Part shown: positions 6,418 through 11,990 of the stretch, in pieces
Layout of the letters: each line of letters opens with the position of its first letter
How positions within the stretch are numbered: the first letter of the stretch is position 1
DNA from: an uncultured Desulfobacterales bacterium
Lineage (GTDB): Bacteria > Desulfobacterota > Desulfobacteria > Desulfobacterales > UBA11574
Assembly: GCA_937925895.1 (NCBI GenBank)
Contig: CALANC010000292.1
Span: forward strand, 1-13,945
DNA length: 13,945 bases
Reading direction: 5' to 3'
Program-made: the position numbers and the translations under genes
The notes under the pieces: model-generated
Databases searched by the model: none
What the model was told of the DNA's origin: nothing
The model's input: the letters and a program-made list of their open reading frames with translations, nothing else

Positions 6418-6485
6418 GAAAACTGGTTGTTAATCTTGTTGTCGTTATTTTACAATTTAATCTTAATCATTTCAGGAGGTATTGA

Positions 6486-6926
6486 ATGGAGCTGTCTGAA
6501 ATCACGAAAAAACTATTGGCTGCTAAAAAAGAGAAATCATTGAGTTTTGCTGATTTGGAAACTGTTGTGGGGCGTGATGAAGTCTGGATTGCGGCTGTTT
6601 GTTACCGGCAGGCCAGCGCTTCTAAGGAAGAAGCGGAAAAAATTGTATCAGCTTTAGGGCTTGCCCCTGATGTGGCCGAAGCGCTTACCGAATACCCTCT
6701 GAAGGGATTAGGCCCTGCAGTCCCCACCGATCCGTTGATCTATCGTTTTTATGAGATTATGCAGGTTTATGGAATGCCTCTTAAGACAATTATTCACGAA
6801 AAATTTGGTGACGGCATCATGAGTGCTATCGATTTTACCTTAGATGTCGAAAAGGAGGAAAATTCTAAGGGAGATCGTGTCGTCGTTACCATGAACGGGA
6901 AGTTTTTACCCTTCACTAAATGGTAA
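6486..6926 (+). CDS. cynS: Cyanate hydratase (cyanase)
   Basis: 146-residue cytosolic enzyme that converts cyanate and bicarbonate to carbamate and CO2; carbamate then falls to ammonia and CO2. It detoxifies cyanate and supplies nitrogen. Residues 1-75 form the helix-turn-helix-like oligomerisation domain. The C-terminal catalytic domain contains [15 protein letters not shown] (82-96) and [14 protein letters not shown] (104-117). The three known catalytic residues are present: R87, E90 and S113 (R96, E99 and S122 in the E. coli enzyme). Length is close to the family norm. AGGAGGT five bases before the ATG fixes the start. The usual partners, a carbonic anhydrase (cynT), a cyanate transporter or CynR, are not adjacent; the upstream neighbour is a PLP enzyme. 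A terminator hairpin follows. Confidence 0.97.
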
Positions 6927-6979
6927 TCACCAGCTATTTGCTCTTGCTATAACGCAAATAAGCCTTAGTTGTTGATGTC

Positions 6980-7155
6980 TGCTATAGTGCAAACATCAGC
7001 GGCCTGAAATATTTAGGATATCATCTTTTCATTAAGGGCAAATTCATTTTGAAGGATTTGCCCTTTTCATTTTTATGATATATGTAACTATCAAGATTCG
7101 GCTTCAGCTTGTGCGTATGGCAAGAAATCACAGGTTTTGGCAAGCCAGATTTTCA
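6980..7155 (+). repeat. Dispersed repeat family A, copy 4 (long form with hairpin)
   Basis: Shares with copy 2 the blocks CTGCTAT...GC...ATCAG (6980 on), GGATATCATCTTTTCATTAA (7017-7036), a GGGCAAAT hairpin, and the core GGCAAGAAATCACAGGTTTT (7119-7138), then GGCAAGCCAGATTTTCATG. The core has TTGGCA where the other copies have TTGACA. It extends to within about 60 bases of the first integron cassette junction. Confidence 0.65.
7034..7075 (+). terminator. Rho-independent terminator after cynS
   Basis: AAGGGCAAAT (7034-7043) pairs perfectly with ATTTGCCCTT (7056-7065), with a 12-nt loop, followed by TTCATTTTTATG. It serves cynS by position but is also a conserved part of the long form of repeat family A. 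A second hairpin without a T run lies at 6971-7000 (GTTGATGT with ACATCAGC). Confidence 0.7.
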
Positions 7156-7211
7156 TGGGAATCTTCCTAATTTATGGTTGTAATTCTTTCGCAGCGAATC
7201 AATATTTAATG

Positions 7212-7945
7212 TTATGCTTCCGAGATAATGCCATGAACAAATGCTGTACTATAATATTTACATTGTTCACGCTATTAGCCATTGGTGGATACAATAATGA
7301 AAGTCAAGCATCCAGAGCCACTCCAACTGACAAAACTAGTCAAAAAACTTTAATAAAACTGAACCCAAAGACATCGGAATATAATATTAATGAAGTTTCT
7401 AAAGGAGCAGTTCGCTTCTCAGCATCTGTTGAGAATAAAGATGATAGCTTAATAACTTTTGCTCATCCTACCATCTGCTTTCCTGCAGACTACCAAATCG
7501 GCAAGTCGTTGAATTTTAAAGATCACCACGGTAAATCGGAAATCCTTCTTACAATAGAAAAACCTGATGGCCAAATTGTAATCTTGCGTGACGGACCTCA
7601 TTTTTTCGACCCTAATAATATTAGTCATTTCACCATTAATCCTGGGGAATCAAAGCTGTTTTATGTTGGATGGTTTTTCCAAAATGCGCGAGGAAGGTGG
7701 GAAGATGACCTTAAAGCCGAAAGTGTGTTTATGGGAAAAGGACAATATAGGGTAAAGTTGCTTTATCGTAATTTTTTTCCATAGGCATTCATTTATGACA
7801 CATCCACCAGTAAGAGGAGTCTTATAAATGTTTGGACAGGAGAAATACAATCCAACGAGGTTCTCGTAAAAATAAAATGAATTTAAGGCATAACCTGCGC
7901 CTGGACGCAGACGGGCTAAAAACCGCGAACGATAGTTAGGCGCCG
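7212..7945 (+). mobile_element. Integron gene cassette 1 (secreted protein gene)
   Basis: A cassette is cut between G and TT of its core sites. Here GTTATGC at 7211-7217 marks the left junction. The attC R'' box at 7888-7894, GCATAAC, is its exact reverse complement, as the mechanism requires because the R' box of an excised cassette is formed by the cassette's own first bases. The gene ATG lies 21 bases from the junction, a typical compact cassette. The unit is 734 bases. No integrase gene lies in the window. Confidence 0.75.
7233..7784 (+). CDS. Secreted protein of unknown function in integron cassette 1
   Basis: 183 residues from the ATG at 7233. An earlier TTG at 7139 is open in frame but lies before the cassette junction and inside a repeat. 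Residues 1-26 (MNKCCTIIFTLFTLLAIGGY and onward) form a signal peptide with no lipobox cysteine, probably cut near SQA. The mature part is strand-rich and aromatic, with segments such as AVRFSASVENKDDSLI, SEILLTIEKPDGQIVIL and KLFYVGWFFQNARGRW, suggesting a beta-sandwich. I recognise no family. The ribosome site is poor. As the only gene of a cassette it would depend on an outside promoter. Unknown exported proteins are common cargo of environmental cassettes. Confidence 0.7.
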   Translation: MNKCCTIIFTLFTLLAIGGYNNESQASRATPTDKTSQKTLIKLNPKTSEYNINEVSKGAVRFSASVENKDDSLITFAHPTICFPADYQIGKSLNFKDHHGKSEILLTIEKPDGQIVILRDGPHFFDPNNISHFTINPGESKLFYVGWFFQNARGRWEDDLKAESVFMGKGQYRVKLLYRNFFP

Positions 7946-7951
7946 TTAACT
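7888..7951 (+). other. attC recombination site of cassette 1
   Basis: 64-base site. R'' GCATAAC (7888-7894) and R' GTTAACT (7945-7951). The inner arms are GCGCCT (7897-7902) and AGGCGC (7938-7943), with the unpaired GG following the left arm where attC sites carry extrahelical bases. GTTAGGC at 7935-7941 also resembles an R' box. The junction at 7945 is preferred because the next cassette's R'' (AGTTAAC, 8362) is the exact complement of GTTAACT. Length is within the known 57-141 range. Confidence 0.68.
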
Positions 7952-8484
7952 TGATAGAGATGGATACGACACAATCAACACGCATTATAGATTTCAGCCT
8001 TGGTGTGGTTGGTGCTTTAATATTTATTTCAGCTGCGACGAAAGTCCGGTTACTTTTTAACATTTTTCACTTTCAATATTTTTGGGAACAAGCAATAGCC
8101 ATCATTTATTTTACATCTGCAATTATTGCTTGTCTTGGTCTGCTTCGTTTGAGAATATGGGGTTTTATTGCTGCATACATTCACATACTTGTTGCAACGA
8201 TGTTTTTGTCGATATCGATTTTGCCCTTTTTATTTAATTTGTTACGATTGGACTATTTGACAGCTAAAAAAGTATTGCTTATCAGCAATTTAGCGATGTT
8301 ATTCTTCATTGTAGTTTTACATGGCATAAAGAGAATGCTGGATAAGAAGTCATCGATGACAAGTTAACAAATCAGTGGAGAGAGACCGGGCTTATACCGC
8401 GACTTTTTAAAGATAATTTTCGGGGGCAAGTGCAGTGCCTTTAAACACTTTTTCCGTATAACAGCCTGGCCACTCACTTGCACG
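7946..8484 (+). mobile_element. Integron gene cassette 2 (membrane protein gene)
   Basis: The left junction is G|TTAACT at 7945/7946. The right end is G8484 of the R' box GTTAAAT. The cassette's R'' AGTTAAC (8362-8368) complements its own left core GTTAACT perfectly. The unit is 539 bases, with the ATG nine bases from the left core and the attC overlapping the stop codon. It directly abuts cassette 1. No further R'' complementary to GTTAAAT is found downstream, so the array seems to end here. Confidence 0.78.
7960..8367 (+). CDS. Small four-helix membrane protein of unknown function in integron cassette 2
   Basis: 135 residues from the ATG at 7960; an in-frame TTG at 7951 would add three residues but overlaps the recombination core. 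Four hydrophobic segments are visible at about residues 9-30, 42-64, 66-95 and 105-127, with short basic loops (KVR, LRLR, KK) and a polar end (DKKSSMTS). The length and the even number of helices suggest a small inner-membrane protein with both ends inside. No motif links it to a known family. The stop codon TAA (8365-8367) lies inside the attC R'' box, a common economy in cassettes. There is no clear ribosome site beyond GATAGAG. Confidence 0.75.
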   Translation: MDTTQSTRIIDFSLGVVGALIFISAATKVRLLFNIFHFQYFWEQAIAIIYFTSAIIACLGLLRLRIWGFIAAYIHILVATMFLSISILPFLFNLLRLDYLTAKKVLLISNLAMLFFIVVLHGIKRMLDKKSSMTS

Positions 8485-8490
8485 TTAAAT
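8362..8490 (+). other. attC recombination site of cassette 2
   Basis: 129-base site with the full attC plan. R'' AGTTAAC (8362-8368), a 5-base spacer, L'' AGTGGAG (8374-8380), a long imperfect arm, L' CTCACT (8473-8478), a 5-base spacer, and R' GTTAAAT (8484-8490). L'' and L' pair except for one extra G (8378), the extrahelical base that sets strand choice in attC sites. Further in, ACCGGGCTTATAC (8385-8397) pairs with GTATAACAGCCTGG (8456-8469) with two small bulges. Confidence 0.85.
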
Positions 8491-8531
8491 TGGCACTGCG
8501 GCTATAATCCTTTAATGGAAATTAAAACCAG

Positions 8532-8568
8532 AAAGCGTGGACTGACGTAAAAATTCCACGCTTTTTCT
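8532..8568 (+). terminator. Rho-independent terminator after the cassette pair
   Basis: AAAGCGTGGA (8532-8541) pairs with TCCACGCTTT (8555-8564), followed by TTCT. It is 40 bases beyond the last attC and would end read-through from the cassettes. The A-rich left flank lets it work in both directions. Confidence 0.65.
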
Positions 8569-8667
8569 AATTGTTGCCTACACAATATCTTGGAGTGGTG
8601 GGATCTGGTATGAAACCTGACATATCTCCAACAAACCCGTAACGAATCTAGATTGCATGTTAATGCT

Positions 8668-8775
8668 GAGACTGTCGAAAAACCCTAAATCTGTGTTTTT
8701 GGGCTTAGTAACTATTTGATTTTATTATATGCCAAAGGGCCCAAATCGCCGTTTTTAGACTTTTCCGACAGTCTC
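8668..8775. mobile_element. MITE-like element, 108 bp, no coding capacity
   Basis: Termini are GAGACTGTCGAAAAA (8668-8682) and TTTTCCGACAGTCTC (8761-8775), inverted repeats of 15 bases with one base offset. Weaker complementarity (AAA and GGGC blocks) continues to about 38 bases. GCT flanks both sides (8665-8667 and 8776-8778), a possible 3-bp target duplication. Terminal GAGACTGTC-type ends are seen on several DDE insertion sequences, so it could be moved by a transposase encoded elsewhere. Confidence 0.65.
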
Positions 8776-9877: not shown

Positions 9878-10768
9878 ATGGCATATCCTACACACGCCTT
9901 CATCACGGAAGTCGGCCCGCGCGACGGGCTGCAAATGGAAAAGCAGGTGCTGTCCACTGATCAAAAAATACAACTGATTAACGGCTTGGTGAAAGCCGGG
10001 GTGAGTTCCGTTCAAGTGGCATCTTTTGTTCATCCCGGCAAGGTGCCGCAAATGGCTGATACCGAATCTGTAATTGACGCTTTGCCGCCAATGGATTCGG
10101 TTGAGTTTAGCGCCTTGACCCTAAATCGCAAGGGGATGGAACGCGCCTGTCGTACACCGATTCAGTGGATCGAAGTGTCGCTTTCGGCCAGTGAAGAGCA
10201 AAGCAAAAGCAACAGCGGCATGTCGGTTCATGAGGCCCTGGCGGAAGCAGTCGCCATGATTGATTTAGCCCGGCAGGAAGGCCGCAAAGTACGCGGCAGC
10301 ATTCAATGCAGCTTTGGATGTGTGCATGAATGTGAAATCGAGGTGTTTCAAGTACAGCGCCTGGCCGAGAAACTCTTGAACAAAGGCTTGGACCGGCTTA
10401 TATTGGCGGATACTACGGGGATGGCCACACCACCGGCCGTGCGTCAAAATCTGGCGGCAATATTGCCTATGGCAGGTGATGTTTCGGTTGGGCTGCACTT
10501 GCATGACACCCGTGGTATGGGCTTGGTCAATCTAATGACCGCACTAGAAATGGGGATTACATATTTTGACACCTCACTGGGGGGCTTGGGCGGATGCCCA
10601 TTTGTTGAAGGCGCAGCAGGGAATATAGCCACCGAGGACACCATCCATTTGTTAAACAGTCTGAATGTTGCCACCGGAATTGATTATACCAAGGTAGCCG
10701 CAGAGTCGCGCAAGCTGAGCCGCCTGCTGGGGCGTGACCTTACAGGTAAGATGTACCGGCTGCTTTGA
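9878..10768 (+). CDS. Hydroxymethylglutaryl-CoA lyase family protein
   Basis: 296-residue DRE-TIM-barrel enzyme expected to split 3-hydroxy-3-methylglutaryl-CoA into acetyl-CoA and acetoacetate, the last step of leucine breakdown. EVGPRDGLQ (11-19) holds the catalytic R15-D16. ASFVHPGKVPQMAD (48-61) matches the family. LHLHDTRGMG (206-215) gives metal ligands H207 and H209. LGGCPFVEGAAGNIATED (237-254) is the signature with catalytic Cys C240 and metal-ligand N249. Length is typical. AAGGAAG lies a few bases before the ATG. No leucine-degradation partner (methylcrotonyl-CoA carboxylase, methylglutaconyl-CoA hydratase, CoA transferase) is adjacent, so related aldol substrates are possible. By eye its base composition is more GC-rich than the flanking DNA. 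It lies between two family B repeats in direct orientation, suggesting it may have moved as a unit. Confidence 0.93.
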   Translation: MAYPTHAFITEVGPRDGLQMEKQVLSTDQKIQLINGLVKAGVSSVQVASFVHPGKVPQMADTESVIDALPPMDSVEFSALTLNRKGMERACRTPIQWIEVSLSASEEQSKSNSGMSVHEALAEAVAMIDLARQEGRKVRGSIQCSFGCVHECEIEVFQVQRLAEKLLNKGLDRLILADTTGMATPPAVRQNLAAILPMAGDVSVGLHLHDTRGMGLVNLMTALEMGITYFDTSLGGLGGCPFVEGAAGNIATEDTIHLLNSLNVATGIDYTKVAAESRKLSRLLGRDLTGKMYRLL

Positions 10769-11552: not shown

Positions 11553-11990
11553 TTAGGTGTTCTTTACAACATATTCAATCGTTGAGTTAATTATTTTCAA
11601 AATTTTTTCTTTAGAATAGAGCGGTCCACGGCCAATCCCCGGGCATTCATCAGCAACCCGGCGCCACTTTTTCGGAGAACGGATATTTTCAAACCAGAAA
11701 GGAAAGGTGGCACACTGTCGGGGACGTACCGGATAAATAACACACTCGTTTTTATAAAAAAAACACCGCCCATCCGCATGTTCTTTGATACGGTATCCCA
11801 CCTTAAACGGAAGAAGATATGTTTCAATGAAACTTGAAACCTGTTTTGAAAGGTATTTGGCTATCTTTGCGACTTCATTTTCGGTAACGTAGACAATGCC
11901 TGGCTCTCCCATGCAGCAGAGACCGCATAACTGACATTCAAAGTGAATACCTTGATCAAAAAAATAGGACCGATTGTATAGTTTGTTCAT
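11553..11990 (-). CDS. YkgJ-family cysteine-cluster protein
   Basis: 145-residue cytosolic protein with the CxxCxxCC signature of the YkgJ/Fli-type zinc- or iron-binding family (PF03692): C19, C22, C25, C26, then C76, C83, C93 and C116. The segments FECQLCGLCCMGEPG (17-31), GRCFFYKNECVIYPVRPRQC (74-93) and ATFPFW (94-99) are typical. The eight cysteines probably bind one or two metals; the biochemical role of the family is not established. ATG at 11990 with GAG eight bases upstream is the best start. A TATAAT box lies 24 bases before the ATG. It heads a two-gene unit with the coiled-coil protein and is divergent from the cupin operon. Confidence 0.88.
   Translation of the reverse strand: MNKLYNRSYFFDQGIHFECQLCGLCCMGEPGIVYVTENEVAKIAKYLSKQVSSFIETYLLPFKVGYRIKEHADGRCFFYKNECVIYPVRPRQCATFPFWFENIRSPKKWRRVADECPGIGRGPLYSKEKILKIINSTIEYVVKNT

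Follow-up and report, generated by a model that had tools for sequence, protein, structure and literature searches.

The window, by which is meant the whole stretch of 13,945 nucleotides that was analysed, is contig C292 of a MAG (G000) that comprises 2.58 Mb in 481 contigs and is 69% complete. The lineage appears to be Desulfobacterales-like, since the best named relative of the HMGL-like protein (9878-10768) is 90% identical and is found in a Desulfobacterales MAG. Two gene cassettes lie side by side on the forward strand. Cassette 1 (7212..7945) carries a gene for a predicted lipoprotein (7233..7784) and the recombination site attC1. Cassette 2 (7946..8484) carries a gene for a small hydrophobic protein (7960..8367) and a second site, attC2. 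They are preceded by an attI-like site on the same strand (7172..7213) and by a putative intI stub on the opposite strand (7154..7168).

The boundaries of the cassettes are given by pairs of 7-base motifs, which had been pointed out in the initial annotation. GTTATGC at 7211 is the exact reverse complement of GCATAAC at 7888, and GTTAACT at 7945 is that of AGTTAAC at 8362; all four positions are as claimed. Both units have the parts of a gene cassette, an open reading frame and an attC whose R'' is matched by R' in seven of seven bases. Single units that obey this rule arise at a mean of 0.55 per Markov window, and 12% of such windows have at least two. A chain of two units that share one junction is present once in the window and in none of 300 first-order Markov windows. 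Nine other loci (221,650 strand-bases) contained no such chain and one single unit. The chain of two units is beyond chance; single motif hits are not clearly so. The two cassettes are real, and their boundaries hold, as covariance model R3, described below, matches their attC sites in exact register.

Site attC1, taken with the R' of the next cassette (7888..7951, forward strand), reads GCATAAC-CTGCG-CCTgGAC ... GTTAGG-CGCC-GTTAACT and has spacers of five and four bases with one extrahelical G. Site attC2 (8362..8490, forward strand) has a long variable stem and reads AGTTAAC-AAATC-AGTgGAG ... CTCACT-TGCAC-GTTAAAT, so that the equal 5-base spacers and the one extrahelical G noted earlier were seen again when the motifs were read. 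The initial 40-odd bases of attC2 are also found in three other genomes (G002, G008, and G013). When the circular form is folded, with the cassette's own R' added, R'' pairs with R' in both sites and on both strands. The R''/R' and L''/L' pairing and the extrahelical base that define an attC are recovered by the motif scan and by model R3 (below), whereas the minimum-energy folds do not yield the canonical L''/L' stem cleanly in attC1 or attC2. The motif scan looked for R boxes, spacers, L boxes, and the extrahelical base. At first strict RYYYAAC boxes were required, which gave no match in the window, and the scanner was loosened after the sites in the window had been inspected; an independent test was therefore needed, for which covariance models were used. 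The loose scan returned 7888-7951, 8362-8490, and two matches on the opposite strand, four in all compared with 4.8 in shuffled sequence. At stricter R-box scores the window had two matches against 0.9 in shuffles, and then one against 0.35.

Three covariance models were built, and the window was absent from the source sets of all of them. For R1, 14 attC sites were aligned from 20 loci around the intI genes of relatives, and the 10 that share one register were kept. R2 was made from 25 R1 hits at 22 loci, including three in an Omnitrophota locus (L069), and R3 from 54 R2 hits at 25 loci. These 54 include one site from the window's own MAG (contig C407), two at other attI-like copies (L096 and L100), and a further two in loci that contain such copies (L179 and L180). 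Searches of the window were run with filters off. R1 ranked attC1 first, although at 9.8 bits and an E value of 2.9, and missed attC2; it was set aside as too narrow. R2 placed attC2 (18.5 bits, E 0.013) and attC1 (10.1 bits, E 2.3) at ranks one and two. The best two R3 hits were 8362-8490 (22.3 bits, E 5.5e-4) and 7888-7951 (18.5 bits, E 0.0063), with the third at E 0.45. As a control, R3 was run on 84,005 bases of genome G003 and gave five hits at E <=10, of which the best two, real or not, scored 18.3 and 16.6 bits (E 0.045 and 0.13) and were both in locus L138. The attC calls are thus above chance with R3 for both sites and with R2 for attC2. It had been suggested that a covariance model could expose the proposed sites as background; with R2 and R3 they rank first and second in the window instead. 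An R2 search of the whole MAG listed one site, C407:3173-3244, and neither attC of the window. That site (L071, 3173-3244, minus strand, 34.6 bits with R2) is close to the end of its contig.

The gene of cassette 1 begins with the ATG at 7233, stops at 7782-7784, and encodes 183 amino acids on the forward strand. A total of 113 homologues were found. The gene is intact in relatives, and the copy in the window is cut by an early stop that leaves it about 31 residues shorter; the full-length end of the relatives would fall about 7 nt ahead of attC1. The relatives are lipoprotein-like, and a structure model of one of them, P0005, is mostly beta-strand. Fold matches were weak, with a query TM-score of at most 0.36 among the matches listed. 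Twenty homologues were aligned, and P0001, which has 96% identity and comes from a contig of 1270 bases, is alone in having the residues encoded to the left of ATG 7233. It probably represents this locus in a closely related genome. Two others, P0007 and P0031, have extensions unlike that of the window, and the remaining aligned homologues start at or past the ATG. Unbroken homology across the proposed junctions, which would have spoken against the cassettes, was thus not seen in this alignment beyond P0001. A scan of genome contigs for the gene found two loci. In Omnitrophota (L069), a homologue is directly preceded by an attC whose last bases are GTTATGC and directly followed by GCATAAC, with more attC hits beyond; neither R1 nor R2 called the site right behind the homologue. 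In Thiotrichaceae (L068), a relative of the gene is present and no attC was seen.

The gene of cassette 2 (forward strand) probably starts at ATG 7960, to judge from the N-termini of its relatives, and its stop codon falls inside the R'' of attC2. The genes had been described as compact and placed 9 to 21 bases from the junctions; the early stop of gene 1 and the probable start and the stop of gene 2 refine this description. There were eight database hits to the second protein, and the longest contigs that carry them are all shorter than 1.9 kb. One hit, P0114, is probably the protein's own cluster. The product is probably a membrane protein, as suggested by its hydrophobicity, and its predicted fold is unreliable. 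No convincing match was found in Pfam, NCBIfam, or PADLOC, and a plasmid collection contained no match to the cassette proteins. Over the cassettes, Rfam had no family at cut-off.

The left edge of the array is formed by the attI-like site, where crossover would be expected at G7211|T7212. When 6927-7232 was searched in 24 genomes, pieces near 7152-7218 recurred and stopped at GTT. A 30-base core pattern, allowed at most three mismatches, was found 18 times among 60 genomes, 10 of which carry it, and 28 times across the order, where it is present in 17 of 389 genomes, 13 of 150 genera, and, by the analysis' own count, eight families; the reversed pattern, as a control, was found nowhere. A class-level search drew almost identical genomes to the order-level one and is no independent count. 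A 317-base query from G008:C345 had 26 matches, which fall in 10 of 60 genomes. The exact 23-base core was not found in viral contigs. The copies are of two forms, a long one, in which a 26-base piece is repeated, and a short one that is seen in the window, G000:C78, G005:C189, G008:C336, G003:1.71 Mb, and G139:C214. The copy at G000:C78 (L104, about 2024-2085) is a second and degraded one in the same MAG, with an intI-start motif and little DNA downstream.

Altogether 34 copies were collected, and two more candidates without the core were left out. Twenty-six were usable, with a GTT end and more than 400 nt downstream; the eight excluded lack GTT, and one of them is also short downstream. In 10 of the 26, the junction 7-mer recurs as its reverse complement 100-1500 nt downstream, whereas 5000 permutations gave 1.02 such copies on average and never more than 5; an earlier set of 18 copies had given a matching R'' in seven against 0.83 permuted. 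The cassette rule is not obeyed by the other 16. R'-like bases lie directly past GTT in the attI-like copies. The copies end as an attI would, at G|TTRRRY followed by differing cassettes (26 copies, with the rule in 10). An attC-like start can be recognized by eye in seven of the 10 (the window, G008:C29, C303, and C336, G059:C163, G280:C51, and G125:C12), and three have no attC-like sequence at R''. Those at G008:C303 and C336 seem to be cut short past the first half. At G008:C345, six of the seven junction bases are matched and a strong attC is present. In the loci of the remaining 33 copies, model R3 found 13 hits at E <=1, each on the same strand as the site: nine downstream (eight loci) and four upstream (three loci). 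Four of the 13 (at L096, L100, L179, and L180 at 866) belong to the training set of R3 and nine are outside it. The upstream attC would not be expected if the site were simply the attI that heads an array, and may belong to older neighbouring arrays. At G008:C29 and G059:C163, which are from different families, the 66 bases behind the first attC are 97% alike, beginning at the junction (L100 3206-3271, L152 887-951). These bases could be the shared start of a cassette or the right arm of an old attI, and are a hint of shared junctions.

The initial annotation stated that there is no integrase gene in the window. In agreement with this, ten IntI proteins of relatives gave no match by tblastn at E 0.01, and intI was also sought elsewhere in the MAG, in which there is no TIGR02249 match above cut-off at 69% completeness, while 29 of 60 relatives have an intI over the cut-off. 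At that completeness, an intI gene may lie elsewhere in the genome. The locus thus has no integron-integrase nearby, as in a CALIN, and lacks the functional intI of a complete integron. To look for remnants, ten IntI proteins of relatives were compared by tblastn with the 1600 bases on the upstream side of every attI-like copy. Three of the 34 copies have integrase fragments there, all of which point outward from the site, as intI does in a normal integron. At G008:C345 the fragment is N-terminal and stops where the conserved element starts; at G008:C336 it comes from the middle of the protein, and at G003:1.44 Mb it is C-terminal and 26 residues long. Hits at G039:C113 and G139:C321 were ignored (E 0.5-1). 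An intI start with its ribosome-binding site is recognizable, with at most two mismatches, at G000:C78 (two), G005:C189 (one), G008:C345, and G008:C35; at G008:C345 the motif opens the integrase-gene remnant. In the window, the putative stub, with a start codon at 7154-7156 and a ribosome-binding site, is weak (six mismatches in 19) and is 49 nt from GTT, the same distance as that of the motif at G000:C78 and G005:C189. An attI is expected between intI and the first cassette; the window has no intI, and the fragments at the three copies are not intact genes. In none of 20 intI loci and seven further loci did the attI-like core adjoin an intact intI; a single hit with four mismatches is distant from intI. 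An attI could be located in seven of the 20, and its sequence differs from that of the site in the window. The intI matches in the order have frames of about 315-380 residues and, in many cases, longer ones of 395-537 codons, and the remnants at the attI-like sites best match the longer kind.

Taken together, the locus appears to be a chromosomal integron that lost its integrase gene, of which attI, cassette 1, attC1, cassette 2, and attC2 remain; the probability of this reading is put at roughly three in four. The attI-like element of the window is probably the attI of a lost intI and would have been recombined by IntI. An IntI-type recombinase would have been encoded leftward from about 7156, and would have inserted circular cassettes at G7211|TT of attI, building up an array of two or more. 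The gene intI would later have been lost except for its apparent start, where the intergenic repeat now begins, and the cassettes would now be fixed unless IntI acts in trans. An intI would have stood beside the site of the window, and the events would have followed in this order. The cluster had first been taken to be CALIN-like. The two attC called by R3 and the missing integrase agree with that, but the attI-like left edge and the integrase remnants at other copies argue for an integron with a lost integrase, a CALIN in which the attI is retained. The array is headed by a conserved site that is common to other loci, which the definition of CALIN ignores. The locus is also like a complete sedentary chromosomal integron in that an attI-like site is followed by cassettes with attC in one orientation and that, at sister copies, integrase fragments sit at the place expected for intI. 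It is unlike one in that the window has no intI and the cassettes are only two.

An unlikely alternative is that the cluster is not dead and that integrase-free platforms are still filled by an IntI that is encoded elsewhere. Several copies can be present per genome (five in G008), different genes follow different copies, and intI is common in the order (above cut-off in 29 of 60 relatives), all of which would suit action in trans. However, the attIs known from these genomes are unlike the site in the window, the integrase fragments beside copies indicate decay, and some of the attC at copies are cut short. In its fullest form, as a network of integrase-free attI docking sites of the same sequence with many platforms of one or two cassettes per IntI in trans, the idea is doubtful. 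If true, integrons would have a scattered form besides the single array, and one integrase would serve many platforms.

It is very improbable that the cassettes entered an ordinary attG-like site by means of a distant IntI, in which case the left flank would be host DNA. Such attG insertion has been described (PMC12444791, citing Loot 2024), and the locus resembles it in its cassettes without an adjoining intI and in its G|TT junction; the MAG also has no intI over cut-off. The left flank, however, is not locus-specific host DNA but a conserved sequence that recurs in the same position at many loci (28 places, 17 of 389 genomes) and breaks at GTT, and this, with the integrase fragments adjoining three copies, makes off-target insertion unlikely. 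Hardly more can be said for a reading in which the conserved left element is not an attI but a repeat of mobile or regulatory nature, carried perhaps as in delta-attI-type cassettes, that ends in GTT by coincidence. The element is multi-copy, with varying left flanks and short and long forms, and attC lie upstream of it in three loci. Delta-attI-type cassettes of mobile integrons are described (PMC12901181); they likewise have attI pieces away from intI, but there attI closes a cassette, whereas in the window it opens the array. Against this reading, the rule is obeyed far above the permuted level, R'-like bases lie past GTT, and the N-terminal integrase piece stops where the G008:C345 element begins. 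Finally, inverted repeats that flank two ordinary genes by chance are refuted, even if single units are not rare in Markov windows, by the two-unit chain (0 of 300), the R3 hits, and the gene-1 relative inside an array.

The loss of intI, as the preferred reading of the locus, gives the shared attI-like head a use as a sequence handle for testing such loss across an order. A marine study of attI (Elsaied 2011) is cited in PMC8618304. In the open-licence literature, as far as listings and the openings of abstracts show, no report of an orphan attI family like that of the window was found. The origins proposed for CALINs (PMC8618304) are off-target insertion, loss of intI, and rearrangement. The window fits the second of these, to which the attI-like head and the integrase fragments at sister copies point. 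Sites of attI other than those of class 1 are poorly described and are undetected by IntegronFinder (PMC9024848), and similar heads may therefore be overlooked elsewhere.

The surroundings of the array contain other repeated or possibly transferred DNA. A dispersed intergenic repeat with a hairpin (6969-7151) stops where the attI-like region starts. Pieces of 6927-7232 have 20 matches in the MAG itself and 32 in G003, some of which are the attI-like part. The repeat was dropped as a marker of attC-like arrays, since it stands between ordinary-looking genes in the stretches of G003 that were inspected. A second dispersed intergenic repeat (8494-8670) lies immediately to the right of attC2 and recurs in relatives, where its left flanks differ. 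The single Rfam match in the window is a piece of a group II intron (64-139), near the end of the contig. The gene for cyanase (6486-6926) is 80-93% identical in DNA to those of several relatives from other genera, and the similarity is limited to about 6434-6948, the gene with a short margin; horizontal transfer is possible on these grounds. It was rejected as a cassette, as neither the motif scan nor a covariance model found an attC there. A CxxCxxCC gene (11553-11990) has relatives at the DNA level (72-74%) that lie no more than a few hundred bases from intI in G022 and G016 (L026 and L029).
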